Positions 562 to 19,875 of a stretch of 20,674 nt of DNA are shown piece by piece. The position numbers were made by a program, and so were the translations under genes. Within the stretch, counting starts at the first letter, position 1; each line of letters starts with the position of its first letter. The stretch is from a virus, in IMG/VR virus record IMGVR_UViG_3300036832_000812, positions 1-20,674 of that record. One strand, 5' to 3'. The notes beneath the pieces were generated by a model. That model searched no databases and was not told the origin of the DNA. It worked only from the letters and a program-made list of their open reading frames with translations.

Positions 562-722
562 TGCTTGATACCTTTCCCATTCACGATTGCATCGCACATG
601 CCGCAACGATCATTGGCCGACAATTTGTTAAACTCGGCGCGGGTTGCGACAATCTTGAATGTTGGATTTATGCGACGACCGCACATCGTCGTCTGAGTGC
701 GGGGAACCAGATGGATCTTCAT
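558..722 (-). CDS. Very small Cys-rich protein (54 aa), possible zinc site
   Basis: This gene is easily missed. It runs from ATG 722 to TGA 558 and is linked by four-base ATGA overlaps to genes on both sides (719-722 upstream, 558-561 downstream), the usual sign of translational coupling. The protein starts MKIHLVPRTQTTMCGRR and ends in NGKGIKQ. His4, Cys14 and the pair Cys40-x2-Cys43 (RCGMC) could form a single zinc site; small phage proteins with this spacing are common, but I cannot name the family. Its position inside a coupled trio suggests it is made with, and in step with, its neighbours. Confidence 0.7.
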   Translation of the reverse strand: MKIHLVPRTQTTMCGRRINPTFKIVATRAEFNKLSANDRCGMCDAIVNGKGIKQ

Positions 723-2582: not shown

Positions 2583-3041
2583 TCACTTCGGCACTTCAGC
2601 GCTGGCGATCCTTTCGACCAACTCCAACGCTTCCTCATTGTCCTGATCTTCCGGCCCCCAATGATAGCGGGCATCGGACAGGGTGAACCAACGGCAGCCG
2701 GCCTTGATCTTCCAGCCCGGTTCATACTCATCATCGGGATGCCAGACGCCGATAAAGCGATACTCTCGGCTGTCTTCGCCGGCATCATAGATGCCCTGGG
2801 CATCATCGAACCTTACGCAGCGGTCAATGAGCGCACCGTCCAGATTGCAGCCGACCATATTGGCACCACGAAAGTCGGCGGCTTGGATGTCGGCGGAAGA
2901 GAGATCGGTGCCACGGAAGTCACAGTGGGCGAACTTGCCGCCCTCCAGGAAAAGTCCTGACAGATCCTGTCGGGAGAAATCTCCGCGGGACAGATCGAGG
3001 CCATTGCAGACGGCCCGCTGTATGTCGCCTTTTGTCATCAT
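2583..3041 (-). CDS. Pentapeptide-repeat protein with C-terminal phage domain (152 aa)
   Basis: Residues about 14-76 carry A(D/N)LxX-type pentapeptide repeats: DLSRGDFSRQDLSGLFLEGG, then ADFRGANMVGCNLDGALI. These form a right-handed quadrilateral beta-helix; some family members mimic DNA. Residues about 90-130 are a second domain (YRFIGVWHPD, AGCRWFTLSDARYHWG) often found behind pentapeptide repeats in phage proteins. The start is ATG 3041 behind CAGAGGAGCACCA (a second ATG follows at 3038). HHR-2 lies directly upstream and the non-hammerhead element directly downstream. A role as DNA mimic or host-takeover factor is a guess; the repeat call is firm. Confidence 0.85.
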   Translation of the reverse strand: MMTKGDIQRAVCNGLDLSRGDFSRQDLSGLFLEGGKFAHCDFRGTDLSSADIQAADFRGANMVGCNLDGALIDRCVRFDDAQGIYDAGEDSREYRFIGVWHPDDEYEPGWKIKAGCRWFTLSDARYHWGPEDQDNEEALELVERIASAEVPK

Positions 3042-3129: not shown

Positions 3130-3891
3130 TTACTTCACTAACCGCCAATGGCGATCGCCGATCTTCTCCATCTTCGCTTTAGCACGATCCGCCAGTCGCC
3201 GAATGAACGGCTCCCCGACTTTTCTGCCGACGATCGCATCCAATTCAGCGCCCGTCGCACCCTTGTCGCGCAACAGCAAAGCGGAACATTGCCCGCGTTT
3301 GCTATCATCGCGCTGCTCGCCGATGCGCCGCGTGCCGCTGGATTTGCGCAACGAGCGCTCGTATTCTTGGCGGACAGCGTAATCGATCACACGCACAGCT
3401 TCGCCTTTGGCGTTGACGACCGTTACCGGCCTCTTCGCCGCCTTTGATATATCCAACGCTGAATAGTTGACGCTGTTCTGGGTCACATTGGCCGCTTCGA
3501 TGCGCAATGTATAAGGACCATCGTCGGGCGATAAAGCAGAGATGTCGCCGCCATGCGGAACAGGCGGCTGTTCTGGCGTCTCTGCCTTCGTCTCTGCCTT
3601 CTTCTTCTGCGGCCCCTGCTTCTTGGGCATCTGCACGACCTCTGCGGCCTTCACCGGTTTCTTCGTCGCTGCTTTGATGCGCGATATCGGCGATGCCTTC
3701 TTGCCGGTATTCAACGGCTGCGACGCATCGTCCCGGCGATCGGCGATCCACCATTTGTCGGTCTCTTTGTTGAGTTCGACACGATAGTCATCGCCGACAG
3801 GTTTGAATCCATTGCGCTTCAGTTCCGTGATAGCCTCCTTTTCGCTATCCCAGACCAGACTGCGCAATTGATCCATGCTGCGGAAAGTCAT
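3130..3891 (-). CDS. DUF3489-like winged-helix protein with basic linker (253 aa)
   Basis: Three parts can be seen. Residues 1-55 form a small alpha/beta domain (SEKEAITELKRNGFKPVGDD, then a WWIAD motif). Residues 60-115 are a Lys/Pro/Ala-rich disordered linker. Residues about 190-253 resemble the DUF3489/winged-helix repeat (LLLRDKGATGAELDAIVGRK, ending in RHWRLVK). The last part is related to the next gene, whose core is LMLREDGATAPEIQKKTG. Such domains likely bind DNA. The start at ATG 3891 follows CAGAGGAGCACCA and ribozyme HHR-3. The linker suggests a tether between two functional ends. The precise role is unknown. Confidence 0.75.
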   Translation of the reverse strand: MTFRSMDQLRSLVWDSEKEAITELKRNGFKPVGDDYRVELNKETDKWWIADRRDDASQPLNTGKKASPISRIKAATKKPVKAAEVVQMPKKQGPQKKKAETKAETPEQPPVPHGGDISALSPDDGPYTLRIEAANVTQNSVNYSALDISKAAKRPVTVVNAKGEAVRVIDYAVRQEYERSLRKSSGTRRIGEQRDDSKRGQCSALLLRDKGATGAELDAIVGRKVGEPFIRRLADRAKAKMEKIGDRHWRLVK

Positions 3892-3908
3892 TGTTGGTGC
3901 TCCTCTGT

Positions 3909-3974
3909 GGTCTCGTCAGGCAACGCATGACGTTGCTACATGACGGGGCCGTGTGGCCCCGCCATGTTTCGACC
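3909..3974 (-). ncRNA. Type II hammerhead ribozyme HHR-3 (full consensus core, GUA site)
   Basis: Minus strand. Stem II is GGTC (3974-3971) with GACC (3912-3909). GAAA is 3970-3967. Stem III is long, 13 pairs including the core A-U and C-G and one G-U (3967-3955 with 3950-3938), capped by loop ACAC. The cleavage triplet is GUA (3939-3937), allowed by the NUH rule, with cutting between 3937 and 3936. Stem I is GCAACG (3936-3931) with CGTTGC (3925-3920), loop UCAUG. The core strand CTGACGA (3919-3913) fits CUGANGA exactly and joins stem II with no extra base. The upstream stop codon ends one base before stem II, and the ribosome-binding cassette of the next gene starts right behind. This is the cleanest of the five copies. 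Confidence 0.92.
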
Positions 3975-3975
3975 T

Positions 3976-4254
3976 TCACGCAGCTTTTGCCTTGCGCGGC
4001 AGCTTGACGACGTTCGCGGTTTTCTTTGCGATCATGAAGTGATGGAGATAACGGTCGCCGTCATAGGAATATGCCTCGTAGACATAGCCTAGCGTTTCCG
4101 CCAGCTTCGCCAGTGAATAACGCGAACGGCGCTTGCTCTCGCCGGTCTTCTTCTGAATCTCCGGCGCCGTCGCGCCATCTTCACGCAACATCAGATCGGC
4201 GATCTGCTGCTGCTTCTTGGTCGCGGCGGCATATTGTTCGGTATGTGTGGTCAT
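3976..4254 (-). CDS. Small DUF3489-like winged-helix protein (92 aa)
   Basis: Residues about 14-60 form a winged-helix-like core: QIADLMLREDGATAPEIQKK, then SKRRSRYSLAKLAETLGYVY. The last 15 residues are basic. The GAT-x-x-E pattern matches the C-terminal domain of the neighbouring 253-aa protein (DKGATGAELDAIVGRK), so the two are probably relatives, one free-standing and one tethered. DNA binding is the likely role. The start at ATG 4254 is set by CAGAGGAACACCA. It lies between HHR-4 upstream and HHR-3 downstream, so self-cleavage at both would give a one-gene mRNA. Confidence 0.78.
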   Translation of the reverse strand: MTTHTEQYAAATKKQQQIADLMLREDGATAPEIQKKTGESKRRSRYSLAKLAETLGYVYEAYSYDGDRYLHHFMIAKKTANVVKLPRKAKAA

Positions 4255-4273
4255 TGTGGTGTTCCTCTGTGAA

Positions 4274-4353
4274 TTGCCCCTGGCTCATCAGCGCAGTGTC
4301 CGGGGCCAACGATCTGCGGACAACGCAATGTTGCCATTGCGCTGTTTCGCTGG
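4274..4353 (-). ncRNA. Type II hammerhead ribozyme HHR-4 with loop I pseudoknot
   Basis: Minus strand. GAAA is 4348-4345. Stem III is 11 pairs including the core A-U and C-G (4345-4335 with 4330-4320), with a GCAA tetraloop. GUC is 4321-4319, with cutting between 4319 and 4318. Stem I is CGCAG (4318-4314) with CTGCG (4296-4292), enclosing a 17-base loop. Core CTGATGA is 4291-4285. Stem II is short: G4284-C4349 and C4283-G4350, then mismatches. Loop I bases GCCCC (4306-4302) can pair with GGGGC (4280-4276) just 3' of stem II, which may replace the weak outer part of stem II. The same 3' flank (GGGCAATTC) occurs at HHR-5. The weak stem II is the main doubt. Confidence 0.83.
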
Positions 4354-4361
4354 TCAGTAAT

Positions 4362-4538
4362 TTATCTCCATGCGCCGTTACGCTTGAACGCGCGACGCGA
4401 CTGCTTGACCGCCTCGGCATACGCCGTGCCGTCCTTCATCAGATCAGCGATCGCCTTCGCCCGCCATGCGTCCCACTTGTCGTTGACGCGGGCATTGGCG
4501 ATCCGGTCGCGGGCAGTCATCTTCATTGTCTTGGTCAT
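4362..4538 (-). CDS. Small hypothetical protein (58 aa)
   Basis: The start at ATG 4538 is fixed by CAGAGGAGCACCA two bases upstream; a longer reading from 4643 would cross ribozyme HHR-5 and is rejected. The protein (MTKTMKMTARDRIANARVND...) is basic and helical. It has KWDAWRAKAIADLMKDGTAY in the middle and a basic end (KQSRRAFKRNGAWR). It has no cysteines or membrane helix. The charge suggests nucleic-acid binding, but no family is recognised. It lies between HHR-5 and HHR-4. Confidence 0.72.
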   Translation of the reverse strand: MTKTMKMTARDRIANARVNDKWDAWRAKAIADLMKDGTAYAEAVKQSRRAFKRNGAWR

Positions 4539-4555
4539 TGTGGTGCTCCTCTGAA

Positions 4556-4632
4556 TTGCCCTGACTTCATCAGTGCGGGTGGGGCAAGTTTCCCGCAGAC
4601 AGCACAGCAGAGCGCGCTGTGCCGTTTCGTCA
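4556..4632 (-). ncRNA. Type II hammerhead ribozyme HHR-5 with loop I pseudoknot
   Basis: Minus strand. Stem II is TGAC (4632-4629) with GTCA (4565-4562). GAAA is 4628-4625. Stem III is ten pairs including the core A-U and C-G (4625-4616 with 4608-4599), with a 7-base loop. GUC is 4600-4598, with cutting between 4598 and 4597. Stem I is TGCGGG (4597-4592) with CCCGCA (4579-4574). Core CTGATGA is 4573-4567, followed by one extra A (4566). Loop I bases TTGCCC (4587-4582) pair perfectly with GGGCAA (4561-4556) directly after stem II. The stop codon of the upstream gene (4632-4630) is itself part of stem II. The ribosome-binding cassette starts two bases past the pseudoknot. Confidence 0.9.
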
Positions 4633-5178
4633 TGCCGCCGCATAAGGGTGGAATCGATAGAACGCGCCGTCGCGTGTCATGCGGCAGCGATATTTCATCG
4701 CCAGCAATTGCAGCGGGGTCGATACGCGCGTGCCGTGAGGCAACCCGATGTAATGACGTATCCACGCACGCGACACCGATATCTTTTGTAGGCGCTCGAC
4801 CAAGTGTTTTTCCTGATCGGGCGTCATCGTGATCTTCTGGCGCGGTTCGCGTCGCGGACGCGATGTCGTCTGTTGCGCCCGATTCTCTTGCGCCGCCGCT
4901 CGGCCACGAAGGTCCATGATCTGCCGCTGCAACCCACGCACCATCGTTTGCAGATCACCGATCTGCCGTTCGGCGCGTATCGCACGGCCCATCCAGGCAA
5001 TTGCCTGTTGGGAATGATCAGTTGTTGACGACGCGCTGCCGGACAGCAGCACCGCCCAGGACTTATCGATGTCCTTGCGGATCTTCTCGGCCGCGCGTGC
5101 AGCGTTCAGGACTTCGCCGTCATGATCGCTGCCCATCATACCAAGCACACGGGTCAACCGTGTCATGTTATCGCTCAT
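4630..5178 (-). CDS. Hypothetical protein, first gene of the operon (182 aa)
   Basis: The N-terminus (LTRVLGMMGSDHDGEVLNAA, RAAEKIRKDIDKSWAVLL) resembles the N-terminal segment of a common alphaproteobacterial phage protein with a DUF2786-like helical start; this is a similarity from memory, not a search. Residues about 60-100 look like a coiled coil (AEERQIGDLQTM-type heptads around ERQIGDLQTMVRGLQRQIMD), followed by a basic Gln/Arg linker and a C-terminal helical domain ending in FYRFHPYAAA. The start is ATG 5178 behind CAGAGGAACACCA. It is the promoter-proximal gene of the minus-strand operon, and its stop codon is built into HHR-5. The function is unknown. Confidence 0.75.
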   Translation of the reverse strand: MSDNMTRLTRVLGMMGSDHDGEVLNAARAAEKIRKDIDKSWAVLLSGSASSTTDHSQQAIAWMGRAIRAERQIGDLQTMVRGLQRQIMDLRGRAAAQENRAQQTTSRPRREPRQKITMTPDQEKHLVERLQKISVSRAWIRHYIGLPHGTRVSTPLQLLAMKYRCRMTRDGAFYRFHPYAAA

Positions 5179-5545: not shown

Positions 5546-5875
5546 GTTATGAGGATATATACAGCGGCGGCAAAAGAGCGGATCGATATCATCGTGGAGA
5601 CAGGCTGCGCAGCGTGAACCGTAGGGGCATCATCACTGATGTTTTGCCCGGGCGTCCGTATAACGGTTTGACCAAGGCCCACGCCCGAAAGCGGGAAGCG
5701 CGACCACGACGTATTCATCAATCAAAGATCATGCGATATCAATGCACTACATCGATATCGTGCAGCATCCTCGCAGCCTGTGTGAGTTGTGCAAGTCAAG
5801 AGATAGCTCAATGAAATCAAGAGCTTCTAGAGGATGGACACCAAATCGGGCCCAATTTTTGTGCAGGAAACGGCA

Positions 5876-7873
5876 ATGGACGTTTCGGTGAGTGAAACAA
5901 CGTCGCCCGGCATCGATTTGCAGATTGCCTATCGTCCTCTCCGGGAACTGATCCCGTATGCGCGTAATGCACGCACACATTCGGCGGATCAGATAAAGCT
6001 GATCCGGCAACTGCTCGGGCATTATGGCTGGACCAATCCGATGCTGATCGCCGGCAATGACATGATTGCTGGACACGCCCGCCTCACAGCGGCGATGCAG
6101 ATGGCCTCTGCCGGCCAGATGATCCCGCGCAATGCCGATCCATGGCGCGGCCCGACCATCGACCTGTCCCATCTCTCCGAGGACGACCGACGCGCCTATA
6201 TCATCGCCGACAACCAATCCGCCCTGCTCGCCGGATGGGACCAGGACCTCCTGCGGATCGATATGGGCGAATTGCGCGAGCGCGGGTTCGATCTCTCCCT
6301 GACCGGCTTCGCCAGCCTCGAAGTCGATGTCATGCTCGGCGGCACCACAGACGGGACAGGCAAGCAGGACGGCATCGATCGTGCCCTGTTCCCTGATGAG
6401 CAGACGGTGTGGAACGCGGCATGGCGATCGTTGATGGAGGAATGGCACGCAAGGTTCGAGGCAACCCGCCTCAATGCCGCTCCGCTGTCCTCGACCTTCT
6501 CGCCTGCGTCTCTCGCCGTGTATTTCGTCCGCGCCATGCTCTACGGCGGCGAGATACCCCGAGGATGCACGCTCGCCTATCAGCCTCACCGCATGTGGGT
6601 GAACGCCCATCAATTGCCATTGTCCGAACTATTTCTTGCGGCGACGCAAAACCCATCGCTGATGGACAGTGTGCGATGGCAATGCCAGAACCGCCCGCTC
6701 TATGACAAGTTGATCTCGGCCTCGCTCGGCATCCACGGGCATAGGGCGCCGAACGATTTCCCTGCCCATCTGGCACGCGACCTGATCAATGAGTTCTGCC
6801 CAGACCACGGCGCCCGCATCCTCGACCCTTGCCATGGATGGGGCGGCCGCCTCCTCGGTTTCATGCTTTCGCGGCATGGCGCGCATTATCACGGATACGA
6901 TGTGTGCGATCGGACACAGGACGGCGTGCGGCGCATCTTCGCCGATCTGCTGCCCTATTGCCTAAATCAGCAACGGGCCGTGCAGCTCGACCTAATCCCG
7001 TATCAGGAAGCGCAGCCCGAGGCGGACACGTATGATTTCGCGCTGACCTCGCCGCCGTATTACAACGTGGAGAAATATGACGGCGATCGGCAATCATGGC
7101 GCGATTTCGCCTCGTTCGACGATTGGGTTGCAGGGTTCTATCGCCCGCTGTTGGGCAACACCGCTCGCGCCCTCAAGCCCGGCAAGACCTTCGCATTGCA
7201 GGTGGGATCACAGAACTTCCCGCTGGCGCGGCTCGCAAAGGAAATCGCCCCGCGTGTCGGCATGCATATTGTCGCAATCCGCCCGACCGATATGACGAAC
7301 ATCCAAACGCAGACAGCAGCGCATGACGGGGAGGTTATCGTCATCATGCGAAAGGCTGACGGATCAGAACCGATCAGCCTCTATGTCACGCCACCCGTCC
7401 CGCCAGGATATCTCGCTGAGCTATTCGGCGTCACCATTCGACGTATCGAGACAGTCGAAGAGGCAAAGGGAGCAATCCGCATCAGGCAGCCCTGGGCCGG
7501 CAAGATGCTTCGCCCGTTACCGCCGATCGTCTACTACGGAGCAATGGAAGACGGACGCCTCTGGGGAGCATTCGACGACACAACAGGCGCCATTATCGGA
7601 TACGCTATGGCGCGCGTCAGAAAGCGTGAGGCATCAATCGATCTGCAACAGATCGCCGTCAACGACAACGCGCCTAAGGGTGTCGCGCGACGCCTCATGT
7701 CTGTCATCTGGGAATGGGCGGTCGATCGCGGCGCCAAGAAGCTCACCGTCAATACCTTGTTGACCTCCGAACGCGCCCGCATGCTCTACGATCGCTTCGG
7801 CTTTTCAGAGACCAACCGCGACCACAAAGATATCGATTACGCGATATCCTTGGACCCGGTTCAGCATAATTAA
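5876..7873 (+). CDS. ParB - DNA methyltransferase - GNAT fusion (665 aa)
   Basis: Three enzymes appear to be joined. Residues about 15-155 are a ParB/Srx-type domain (RPLRELIPYARNARTHSADQ; GNDMIAGHARLTAA at 60-73), the usual N-terminal partner of phage methylases. Residues about 290-495 are an amino-methyltransferase: SAM motif I LDPCHGWGGRLLG (316-328), then catalytic motif IV TSPPYY (391-396), typical of N4-cytosine/N6-adenine enzymes. Residues about 545-660 look like a GNAT acyltransferase (GAIIGYAMARVRKR; IAVNDNAPKGVARRLM; SERARMLYDRFGF). The first two are common together; a GNAT domain is unusual and suggests further modification of the methylated base or of a protein. I chose ATG 5876 for its AGGAAA site; ATG 5834 would add 14 residues. 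It leads the plus-strand operon, before terminase. Confidence 0.85.
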   Translation: MDVSVSETTSPGIDLQIAYRPLRELIPYARNARTHSADQIKLIRQLLGHYGWTNPMLIAGNDMIAGHARLTAAMQMASAGQMIPRNADPWRGPTIDLSHLSEDDRRAYIIADNQSALLAGWDQDLLRIDMGELRERGFDLSLTGFASLEVDVMLGGTTDGTGKQDGIDRALFPDEQTVWNAAWRSLMEEWHARFEATRLNAAPLSSTFSPASLAVYFVRAMLYGGEIPRGCTLAYQPHRMWVNAHQLPLSELFLAATQNPSLMDSVRWQCQNRPLYDKLISASLGIHGHRAPNDFPAHLARDLINEFCPDHGARILDPCHGWGGRLLGFMLSRHGAHYHGYDVCDRTQDGVRRIFADLLPYCLNQQRAVQLDLIPYQEAQPEADTYDFALTSPPYYNVEKYDGDRQSWRDFASFDDWVAGFYRPLLGNTARALKPGKTFALQVGSQNFPLARLAKEIAPRVGMHIVAIRPTDMTNIQTQTAAHDGEVIVIMRKADGSEPISLYVTPPVPPGYLAELFGVTIRRIETVEEAKGAIRIRQPWAGKMLRPLPPIVYYGAMEDGRLWGAFDDTTGAIIGYAMARVRKREASIDLQQIAVNDNAPKGVARRLMSVIWEWAVDRGAKKLTVNTLLTSERARMLYDRFGFSETNRDHKDIDYAISLDPVQHN

Positions 7874-7893: not shown

Positions 7894-8373
7894 ATGTCTG
7901 GAGCGCCGAATAGAATGGGCCAGCCGCCCCACGAACCGACGCAAAAAAGCCGAGAGACGGTCATGGTCATGCACGCGCATGCCATCCCGCATCGCATCAT
8001 CGCCAATCTGCTGGAGATCGATAGCAAGACCCTGCGCAAGCACTACGCCACAGAATTGCGTGACGCCAAATTGCGCGTCGAAGCAGCGATGGGCGCGGCG
8101 ATCGTCCGGGCGGCACAGAACGGAGCATGGGGCGCGGCGAAGTATTGGTTGCAGACCCATGGCTCGGAGGCATGGAAGATTCCGCCGCACATGCGCGATG
8201 CCGAAAACTTGCCGCCGCCTGGGCAAACCAACACAACGATCATAATCAAGGGCGGCTTGCCCGACGCTGCCACGATCTATGCTACGACCACGAATGGCGA
8301 GGACGACGAAGAAGCGCCGCCGCCACGGCCAAACGGCGAGCATAGAGGCAATGGATCAGATCACATCATTTGA
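7894..8373 (+). CDS. terS: Terminase small subunit-like DNA-binding protein (159 aa)
   Basis: A helix-turn-helix at about residues 25-58 (MHAHAIPHRIIANLLEIDSK, then TLRKHYATELRDAK) is followed by a helical segment with a WGAAKYWLQTHG motif (about 78-90). This is the pattern of small terminase subunits that read LGIS-type HTH plus LRKHY...EL and xAAxFWLKT. The C-terminus (100-159) is low-complexity and acidic/Pro-rich. It would recognise the packaging site and load the large subunit. The start ATG 7894 has GGGGAG upstream. It overlaps the large-subunit gene by 23 bases, the expected order and coupling. Confidence 0.8.
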   Translation: MSGAPNRMGQPPHEPTQKSRETVMVMHAHAIPHRIIANLLEIDSKTLRKHYATELRDAKLRVEAAMGAAIVRAAQNGAWGAAKYWLQTHGSEAWKIPPHMRDAENLPPPGQTNTTIIIKGGLPDAATIYATTTNGEDDEEAPPPRPNGEHRGNGSDHII

Positions 8374-9691
8374 CGGACGCCTCCCGCCGCCAGGGCGGAA
8401 CCGGAAACAACGCAGAGGCGGCGACGAAGGGATCGAGATCGATCTGCCGTATCTGCACGCCGATCAGGTCAAGGCGTATCAGATGCCGGGCCGGTTCAAG
8501 GCGGTCAGATGTGGGCGGCGGTGGGGCAAGACGAAATTCGCGGAAGTCCAGGCGGCAGATAAATCGATCAGGGGCCAATTGGTCGGATGGTTCGCGCCGG
8601 AATATAAATTCCTGTCGGAAGCATATAACGATCTTGCCGACATGCTGCGCCCGGTCATCTGGCGCGCCTCAAAGGATCGATTGATCTGGACCACGACAGG
8701 AGGCCGGATCGATTTCTGGTCGCTCGATAAGCCGAACGTCGGGCGGTCGCGCCGGTATCATTTCGTGGTAATCGATGAGGCGGCGTTCACCAAGCCGGTG
8801 ATGTTCGATATCTGGCGCAAGGCAATCCGCCCTACGCTCGTCGATTTCCGCGGGTCGGCATTGGTTGCCAGTAATACGAATGGCCTCGATTCGGAGAATT
8901 TCCTCTATAAGATATGCAACGATCCGATCCACGGTTTCGTGCAATATCACGCTCCGACTTCCGCCAATCCATATATGCCACCGGAGGAGCTGGAGGAGAT
9001 CAAGGCCAGCACACATCCGTTGGTGTTCGAGCAGGAGTATCTTGCCGAGTTTGTTGATTGGTCTGGATCTGCGTTCTTTTCGCAGATATCGCTGTTGGAC
9101 GGAAATTCGCTGCCAGTTGCTTATCCGACGATCTGTGATGGCGTCTATGCGACGATCGACACCGCGATAAAGGATGGCAAGGAACGCGATGGAACGGCGG
9201 TGACGTTCTGGGCGATATCGAACCGCGTCGGCATTCCGTTGACGATCCTTGATTATGATCTGATCCAGATTGAAGGCAGCCTGCTGGAAGCGTGGCTGCC
9301 CGGCGTCTATCAACGCCTGGAGGAGCTGGCCCGCCTCTGCCGCGCCCGCCACGGCTCGCTGGGCGCCTTCATCGAGGACAAGGGGTCAGGGACCATCCTG
9401 CTTCAACAGGCCCGCAGGCGAGGCTGGATGGCCCGGGCGATAGACAGCAAGCTGACCGACCTCGGCCGCGACGCCCGCTGCATCAACGCATCCGGCTATG
9501 TTCATCGCGGCATGGTCAAGATCAGCGCTACCGCCTACGATCGGGTGATCACGTATAAAGGGACGACCCGCAATCATCTTCTCGGGCAGATCGTCGGCTA
9601 TCGTGTCGGCATCGATCAGGGCGAGGACGATGCACTTGACACGTTCACCTACGGCGTTGCCTTGGCCCTCGGAGACTCGAAGGGGTTCTGA
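8351..9691 (+). CDS. terL: Terminase large subunit (446 aa)
   Basis: This is the ATPase-nuclease motor that packs and cuts DNA at the portal. The Walker A-like P-loop is CGRRWGKT (54-61), Walker B with catalytic Glu is HFVVIDEAA (137-145) and the coupling motif is VASNTNG (172-178). The RNase H-like nuclease has candidate metal ligands Asp270 (YATIDTA), Glu342 or Asp343 (FIEDKGSG) and the acidic cluster EDDALD (425-430). The length fits the family. ATG 8351 is preferred because the protein then starts just before the conserved region and overlaps the small subunit by 23 bases; an earlier in-frame ATG at 8279 would add 24 basic residues read inside the small-subunit gene. Confidence 0.95.
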   Translation: MDQITSFDGRLPPPGRNRKQRRGGDEGIEIDLPYLHADQVKAYQMPGRFKAVRCGRRWGKTKFAEVQAADKSIRGQLVGWFAPEYKFLSEAYNDLADMLRPVIWRASKDRLIWTTTGGRIDFWSLDKPNVGRSRRYHFVVIDEAAFTKPVMFDIWRKAIRPTLVDFRGSALVASNTNGLDSENFLYKICNDPIHGFVQYHAPTSANPYMPPEELEEIKASTHPLVFEQEYLAEFVDWSGSAFFSQISLLDGNSLPVAYPTICDGVYATIDTAIKDGKERDGTAVTFWAISNRVGIPLTILDYDLIQIEGSLLEAWLPGVYQRLEELARLCRARHGSLGAFIEDKGSGTILLQQARRRGWMARAIDSKLTDLGRDARCINASGYVHRGMVKISATAYDRVITYKGTTRNHLLGQIVGYRVGIDQGEDDALDTFTYGVALALGDSKGF

Positions 9692-18933: not shown

Positions 18934-19875
18934 ATGGCCGAAGCTAGGGCCGTTCCGTCTGTTGACGACAAGATCAATGCGCTCACCGATGCGGTCACGA
19001 CCTTGATGCGCAAGGTTGACGGAATGGTCAGCCGCGATGCGATGTCGCGCAAAGACAGCGCAGCCGCCGATGATGATCGCGGCGACAAAGCTGCGAAGGA
19101 CGCGGCGCGCGATACGCTGTTCGGCAAACGCGACAAGGCCGACGAATTCCCACCCAAGAAGGAAGAGGGGGAGGAGGAGGAAAAGGAGGCCAAGGGCGAC
19201 GAGGACGAGGAGGAGGAAAAGAAGGGCGATGAATTCCCGCCCAAGAAGGAAGAAGAGGGCGAGGAAAAGGAAGAGGAGGAGGAAGAGAAAGAGAAGAAGG
19301 GCGATGAGGCCGAGGAGGAAAAGGGCGAGCCGGCGCCGATGGCCTCCGATGACAAGTCGGACCGTGCCGACGCCCGCGCCGATGCCGCCATCCGCAGCCT
19401 GAAGAAGGAGCTTGCCGATCTGCGCCGCAGCATCCGCCGCCCGCGCACGATGACGGACGATGAGCTGAACAATCTCGCCGAACGGCAACAGGAATGGGAT
19501 CGAGTGGCGCAGATGCACGGCCAGCGCGCCTCGCGACCGCTCGATGGCGAACGGATCGAGAGCTACGACCGTCGCTTGTCGAAGATGTTCCAGAAGCACA
19601 GTCCGCGGTGGAAGGACCACGATCTGACGCAGATGCCGATCGAGGTGGTGACCAAGGTCGTCGCGCCAGACATTAGGGCCGACGCCATCACCGCCGCATA
19701 TCGGGTCGAACCGAGTGAAGGCGCTATGCTGAGAGAGGTCCGCAAGGCCGATCGCACCGGTCGCATCATCAGCGAGTTCGTCGGCCCGGTGAATGCGCTC
19801 AATGGCGCATTGGCGCCGTTCCGCATGCCCTCTGCGCGGGTCCGTCGCATCAACACCCAGCCGAACCAGTTCTAA
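18934..19875 (+). CDS. Acidic scaffold-like head protein (313 aa)
   Basis: A helical start (VDDKINALTDAVTTLMRKVD) is followed by an extreme Glu/Lys-rich region (about 68-133) with two copies of DEFPPKKEE, then a coiled-coil helix (ADAAIRSLKKELADLRRSIR) and a C-terminal domain (about 160-313). High charge, coiled coils and the place between protease and structural gene are what scaffolding proteins show. ATG 18934 has CAGGAGAA at about 6 bases. The C-terminal part (ITAAYRVEPSEGAMLREVRK) looks more conserved and may be a capsid-binding end. The DUF is not identified. Confidence 0.72.
   Translation: MAEARAVPSVDDKINALTDAVTTLMRKVDGMVSRDAMSRKDSAAADDDRGDKAAKDAARDTLFGKRDKADEFPPKKEEGEEEEKEAKGDEDEEEEKKGDEFPPKKEEEGEEKEEEEEEKEKKGDEAEEEKGEPAPMASDDKSDRADARADAAIRSLKKELADLRRSIRRPRTMTDDELNNLAERQQEWDRVAQMHGQRASRPLDGERIESYDRRLSKMFQKHSPRWKDHDLTQMPIEVVTKVVAPDIRADAITAAYRVEPSEGAMLREVRKADRTGRIISEFVGPVNALNGALAPFRMPSARVRRINTQPNQF
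19141..19254 (+). repeat. In-frame repeat DEFPPKKEE in the acidic linker
   Basis: A 27-base unit at 19141-19167 recurs at 19228-19254, 87 bases (29 codons) apart, with three silent differences visible at wobble positions. Both copies encode DEFPPKKEE. The Glu/Lys codon runs between them (gag/gaa/aag) make this a likely site of length variation. Confidence 0.8.

Follow-up and report, generated by a model that had tools for sequence, protein, structure and literature searches.

The window analysed here (the whole stretch of 20,674 nucleotides that forms positions 1 to 20,674 of IMG/VR virus record IMGVR_UViG_3300036832_000812) carries a single ORF for a 665 amino acids-long protein that joins a ParB-like domain, a predicted DNA methyltransferase (MTase) and a predicted GNAT acyltransferase. 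This triple fusion is a rare new form of the known phage ParB-methyltransferase fusion. Our preferred reading, to which we give a probability of roughly 0.4, is that of a phage enzyme made just before packaging that would mark DNA with methyl groups and whose GNAT domain would acylate a different amine, protecting the DNA against restriction.

Domain organization of the fusion protein

The reading frame is open from position 5834 to 7873 (+). The start at 5876 is favoured because of the AGGAAA sequence that precedes it (Table 1) and because it coincides with the aligned start of a homologue, L002, which has the same three domains in one ORF and is 71% identical overall. In the AlphaFold2 model of the full protein, built from a 30-sequence alignment (mean pLDDT 84.7), the ParB domain, the helices (173-281 in the model), the Rossmann methyltransferase and the GNAT domain are all ordered; the placement of the domains relative to each other is unreliable because the overall pTM is only 0.56.

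Table 1. Features of the fusion protein, its gene and the genes that follow it in the window.
Feature	Residues	Window position	Strand	Basis
ParB-MTase-GNAT fusion gene	1-665	5876..7873	+	sequence, Pfam, PHROGs, L002 alignment
AGGAAA, likely ribosome-binding site		5865..5870	+	sequence; inference
ParB/sulfiredoxin-fold domain	15-155	5918..6340	+	PHROG matches, profile A6, conservation
Helical region between ParB and MTase	about 170-284	6383..6727	+	AlphaFold2 secondary structure
Class I amino-methyltransferase domain	285-497	6728..7366	+	Pfam PF01555; Z 19.1 to Trm11 6zxv
MTase motif I, LDPCHGWGGR	316-325	6821..6850	+	nearly invariant, 30 sequences
MTase motif IV, TSPPYYNVEKY	391-401	7046..7078	+	SPPY invariant, 30 sequences
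GNAT acyltransferase domain	517-660	7424..7855	+	Pfam, model, fold search
GNAT elements b1-b3	b1 519-523, a1 527-535, a2 550-558, b2 562-567, b3 573-582			AlphaFold2
GNAT elements b4-b7	b4 587-595, a3 603-617, b5 622-628, a4 632-640, b6 644-648, b7 652-658			AlphaFold2
RQPWAGK, between helices a1 and a2	537-543	7484..7504	+	invariant, three fused GNATs
Putative acyl-CoA pyrophosphate loop APKGVA	599-604	7670..7687	+	alignment of three fused GNATs
GNAT motif B, ERARMLYDRFGF, Tyr638 conserved	632-643	7769..7804	+	alignment of three fused GNATs
HTH / TerS-like gene, phrog_12540		7894..8373	+	67% identical (89 aa) to gene after L002 fusion
Terminase large subunit (TerL)		8279..9691	+	without similarity to L002 terminase
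Portal gene		starts 12736	rightward block	
Head morphogenesis gene		starts 15121	rightward block	

Sequence comparison assigns the N-terminal domain to the ParB/sulfiredoxin (ParB-CTPase) fold. ParB-like PHROG families match residues 14-178 (phrog_620, 7e-34; others similar), and a profile of 30 relatives (A6) matches ParB/Noc/Spo0J structures in a sequence profile search (2e-9). The segments GHAR (66-69) and ADN (111-113) are conserved in the alignment of relatives, Gly66 and Arg69 of the G-H-x-R box being found in 27 and 23 of its 30 rows, respectively. The central domain is predicted to be a DNA amino-methyltransferase of the PF01555 type with intact SAM and SPPY motifs: Pfam PF01555 (N6_N4_Mtase) matches residues 387-495 above its curated cut-off (2e-9), phrog_498 “DNA methyltransferase” matches the protein, and the AlphaFold2 model aligns with Trm11 (6zxv; VIA-align Z 19.1). 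Motif I comes before motif IV, so the enzyme is not in the beta-class order. The TSPPY sequence, together with weak profile matches to the N4-cytosine enzymes 2zie and 8s9m, leans towards N4-methylcytosine as the predicted product rather than N6-adenine methylation.

The C-terminal domain is modelled as a real and complete GNAT fold (b1-a1-a2-b2-b3-b4-a3-b5-a4-b6-b7) fused in frame, as an earlier note made from the sequence had proposed for residues 545-660; the fold is as expected, and the domain starts nearer to residue 517 than to 545. Pfam PF00583 (Acetyltransf_1) matches residues 557-643 above its cut-off (1.6e-8), phrog_1249 “acetyltransferase” matches the protein, and VIA-align superposes the model on Ard1 (5c88; Z 19.2, rmsd 1.6, 136 aligned) and RimI (5isv; Z 18.0). 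When compared to the Q/R-x-x-G-x-G/A signature, the putative acyl-CoA loop reads APKGVA/G in all three fused proteins known here, the Gly and the Ala/Gly being kept and the first Q/R replaced by Ala. The most constrained new segment of the domain in the alignment of the three is IRxRQPWAGK, which is basic and aromatic; its RQPWAGK part lies at the usual GNAT acceptor position between a1 and a2 and may bind the acceptor. The GNAT dN/dS is 0.14 between the window and L002 and 0.29 to 0.30 against the third fused protein, L005, values that point to purifying selection on the domain. The other domains give 0.17 (ParB), 0.28 (linker) and 0.20 (MTase) against L002; all these ratios are rough because dS exceeds 1 in most comparisons.

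Kinship of the domain with the phage Mu Mom protein, named in the same note as a GNAT-fold precedent, was not borne out. Pfam PF25680 scores Mu Mom at 2.4e-75 and gives no match to the fusion GNAT up to an E-value of 5, hhalign returns a probability of 0.4% for the pair, and the generic Acetyltransf_1 model matches the fusion GNAT but not Mu Mom. By these sequence measures the domain does not appear to belong to the Mom family. The Mom structure 8bv8 is absent among the best 50 fold-search matches listed, which leaves a shared fold possible.

Distribution and genomic context of the fusion

L005 encodes the tail of a ParB domain, an MTase and a GNAT (54% identical to that of the window) in one ORF whose 5′ end is cut. 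The IMG/VR names of the L002 and L005 contigs point to metagenomes other than that of the window. Because both carry the fusion in one ORF, and given the GNAT dN/dS of 0.14, the architecture is not an assembly accident. It is scarce: used as query against IMG/VR, the MTase domain brought up 407 relatives, and among the best 80 of these, which were retrieved, the GNAT is fused only in L002 and L005. Nearly all of the about 35 nearest ParB-MTase relatives end 0-20 residues past the MTase and have no GNAT, which makes the GNAT a rare addition. This agrees with the earlier view that ParB-methylase fusions are common and the GNAT an unusual extra.

No fused copy was found when phage records were scanned with the GNAT region, and no match among phages and plasmids covered 80% of the fusion protein. 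A genome collection had no match to the GNAT, a second genome scan returned unfused MTases only, and 398 genomes sampled from the phylum of the Nitrosomonas locus L089 yielded only unfused MTases and generic GNAT matches. In a tree the three fused proteins group together without resolution, and a single origin is possible. Separate GNAT genes beside ParB-MTases are also scarce: of the 17 families in the list for 61 neighbours, none is a GNAT family. A home-made GNAT profile run over all loci found only one such gene, in L055 (10511-11044), where it overlaps the start of a distantly related MTase gene; this is an independent GNAT-MTase pairing. The literature searched contained no description of the triple fusion, an earlier mention elsewhere being possible.

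Leftward genes of the window lie before position 5178. The fusion gene then opens a rightward block that continues with the HTH/TerS-like gene, TerL, the portal and the head genes (Table 1), a leading position that had been correctly read from the sequence at the outset. An HTH gene also follows the ParB-MTase in L002 and in the relatives L006, L007, L009 and L010. The fusion and HTH genes look like a mobile unit because both are kept between the window and L002 while TerL differs. A promoter scan upstream from the fusion gene gave nothing above chance. The intergenic region 5′ of it contains a near-palindrome (5734-5760; CGATATCAATG-CACTA-CATCGATATCG), present in one copy in the window, which is possibly an operator; a search of the 240 bp upstream from the L002 gene revealed no inverted repeat.

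Elsewhere in the window, a leftward gene (1445-2476) codes for a 343 amino acids-long protein that by eye is ParB/KorB-like and DNA-binding; it has a weak PHROG match to a transcriptional activator and no Pfam match. Another leftward gene (2583-3041) encodes a pentapeptide-repeat protein (PF00805, 1e-16); in phages, proteins of this kind can serve as DNA mimics. Amid the structural genes, ORF 17569-18855 matches phrog_6216 and NUDIX hydrolase families, and the gene that comes after it (18934-19875) covers the remaining half of phrog_6216.

Gene neighbourhoods of the relatives favour a DNA-hypermodification role for the fusion protein. In L005 the 3′ end of the fusion gene is overlapped by the gene for P0003 (379 aa, L005:1690-2826), which has a 2OG oxygenase domain of the aspartyl/asparaginyl-hydroxylase type (2.7e-11) preceded by an N-terminal domain of no recognised kind. 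A second GNAT suspected by eye in this N-terminal part gained no support: hhalign was negative, and a model built from the sequence alone (pLDDT 37) was too poor to use. P0003 has homologues in Mycobacterium phage LilMcDreamy, whose gp4 (L084:2656-3759) matches it at 31% over 93%, and in L096 (ORF 3778-4965). Both genomes have the gene order ParB, TET/JBP-like oxygenase, ADDT (amino-acid:DNA transferase), P0003-like and then terminase genes, and the L096 operon also has a Ploopntkinase3 match (4.7e-71). The ADDT matches lie above the Pfam cut-off and the TET/JBP matches below it; residues that characterise 2OG oxygenases, an HxD followed further on by H and R, are readable in the TET/JBP-like proteins. 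LilMcDreamy gp2 (L084:855-1787) is annotated as a queuine tRNA-ribosyltransferase; its Pfam TET/JBP score is 0.0022, below cut-off, and that of the L096 homologue is 0.0003. From its sequence gp2 looks like a TET/JBP 2OG oxygenase. The two-part P0003-type protein probably serves base hypermodification as a new tailoring enzyme; its link to the fusion comes from the single locus L005, and L002 has no P0003.

Other partners are found near ParB-MTases. A PALP-fold enzyme that depends on PLP lies near the ParB-MTase in the near relatives L007, L011 and L012. This enzyme corresponds to phrog_7093 “threonine dehydratase” and occurs in L098-L177, L085-L087, L007, L011 and L012. Among 80 loci retrieved with it, an MTase is present in 78, on the same strand in 76 and within 150 bp in 73, and ParB is usually close to the pair. 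In Erythrobacter phages R6L and ZS04 the PLP enzyme is inserted within the MTase, between motifs I and IV. The pairing suggests an undescribed PLP-dependent base modification. In L021 a SAM decarboxylase gene (6649-6945; PF02675, 7.6e-15) lies 13 bp past the ParB-MTase and could supply an aminopropyl donor. Of all these partners, only the GNAT, in fused form, is seen in the window. ParB-domain genes have also been described near the carboxymethylcytosine enzyme CmoX (PMC12783734).

Proposed function and alternative readings

In the reading that we prefer, the ParB domain would hold DNA, perhaps in an NTP-gated manner, and the methyltransferase would methylate an exocyclic amine, with N4 of cytosine likelier than N6 of adenine. 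Carried to DNA on the same polypeptide, the GNAT would use acyl-CoA to acylate a different amine of the phage DNA and so add a second protective mark against restriction. GNAT acylation of an already N-methylated exocyclic amine is chemically unlikely, so that the acceptor would be another one, either an exocyclic amine that carries no methyl group or an amino group on a base side chain that other enzymes have installed. Methylation followed by acylation of the same base, as first suggested, found no support, the about 35 close relatives doing without a GNAT. Several findings count against this reading: the nearest GNAT folds are protein N-terminal acetyltransferases and RimI, the domain lies outside the Mom family and is missing from those relatives, L002 has no P0003, and the window, a 20.7 kb fragment, has no recognised ADDT, TET/JBP, kinase, PLP or P0003-like gene. 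The specific proposal that one polypeptide writes both methyl and acyl groups on DNA, with its GNAT as a non-Mom DNA acyltransferase and a second DNA-base GNAT lineage, is put forward as unlikely.

The same fold matches feed the closest alternative, a serious rival to which we give less than even odds and which takes up the second option of the note, a protein as acceptor. In it the GNAT acetylates a host or phage protein (RNA polymerase, a nucleoid or defence protein, or a packaging protein, for example) while the ParB-MTase separately protects DNA, the whole being a conflict protein of the polyvalent type. The best structural matches of the GNAT are Ard1, Naa50, NatC and RimI, and the best NCBIfam match is RimI (TIGR01575), at 25.5 bits below the cut-off of 86.4. 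Precedents exist in the RimI-like GNATs of phage polyvalent proteins, thought to modify proteins (PMC5512222), and in the GNAT Rac, with which phiKMV-like phages acetylate RNA polymerase (PMC7824862). However, GNAT fold matches are poorly informative on acceptors, the catalytic Glu of RimI aligns (by hand) with Asn626, the partner of the domain is a DNA-directed enzyme, with none of the usual polyvalent domains attached, and in the relative L005 the fusion adjoins an oxygenase of the hypermodification type.

It is quite improbable that the GNAT acts on a small molecule (a drug, toxin, nucleotide or defence signal) and was fused by a chance rearrangement whose sole benefit is co-expression. Phage genomes are mosaic, and there are weak matches to streptothricin, nourseothricin and aminoglycoside acetyltransferases (NCBIfam, PDB sequences), but the domain reaches the family cut-offs of generic GNAT models only, its dN/dS is low (0.14 to 0.30) and the fusion persists in contigs that have diverged and whose terminases differ. 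A role in marking packaging sites, by methylation and perhaps acylation of pac-site DNA or of the TerS-like HTH protein to control the start of packaging instead of protecting the genome, would suit a gene directly before HTH/TerS-like and TerL genes, an arrangement whose HTH part recurs in the five relatives listed above, and has a precedent in Dam methylation at pac of phage P1, but TerL is not conserved together with the fusion and we regard this role as highly improbable.

Relation to known systems and significance

The protein shares with phage ParB-methyltransferase fusions (phrog_498) an N-terminal ParB domain, a C-terminal SPPY-type MTase and a position near packaging genes; they differ in having no GNAT. 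Bce_0392 is an example of such a ParB-methylase (cited in PMC5512222). A bacterial ParB-acetyltransferase fusion that binds GTP likewise joins a ParB-CTPase fold to an acetyltransferase; in the accessible part of its report (PMC12704722) it is described without a methyltransferase and there is no mention of the triple architecture. The fourth member of the LilMcDreamy/L096 operon and the gene after the L005 fusion are homologues, and the operon, too, lies before the terminase. Unlike the fusion loci, it has no GNAT-fused ParB-MTase, and the window in turn lacks TET/JBP-like, ADDT, 2OG oxygenase and kinase genes: no ADDT, TET/JBP, kinase, PLP or P0003-like gene was recognised among the ORFs scanned in this 20.7 kb fragment. 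Mu Mom (PF25680, PDB 8bv8) is also a phage enzyme of the GNAT superfamily, and it modifies phage DNA, which makes it a possible functional analogue; in contrast to the fusion, it is a protein on its own, with neither ParB nor MTase, and no sequence relation was detected. AprA (PDB 7uch, 6b3a) also combines a methyltransferase with a GNAT in one chain, but it belongs to polyketide biosynthesis, its arrangement is unrelated and it was reached only by a Foldseek match with a TM of about 0.2.

Phages commonly have ParB-methyltransferase fusions, whose role is not settled; the window adds one whose third part is predicted to be an enzyme that depends on acyl-CoA. Should the GNAT act on DNA, this would be a new, non-Mom route to base acylation, built on the ParB-MTase scaffold for which other phages have PLP enzymes, a SAM decarboxylase and 2OG oxygenases as partners. 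The GNAT version, together with the PLP, decarboxylase and oxygenase partners of its relatives, suggests that ParB-MTases may be hubs for modifications beyond methylation.
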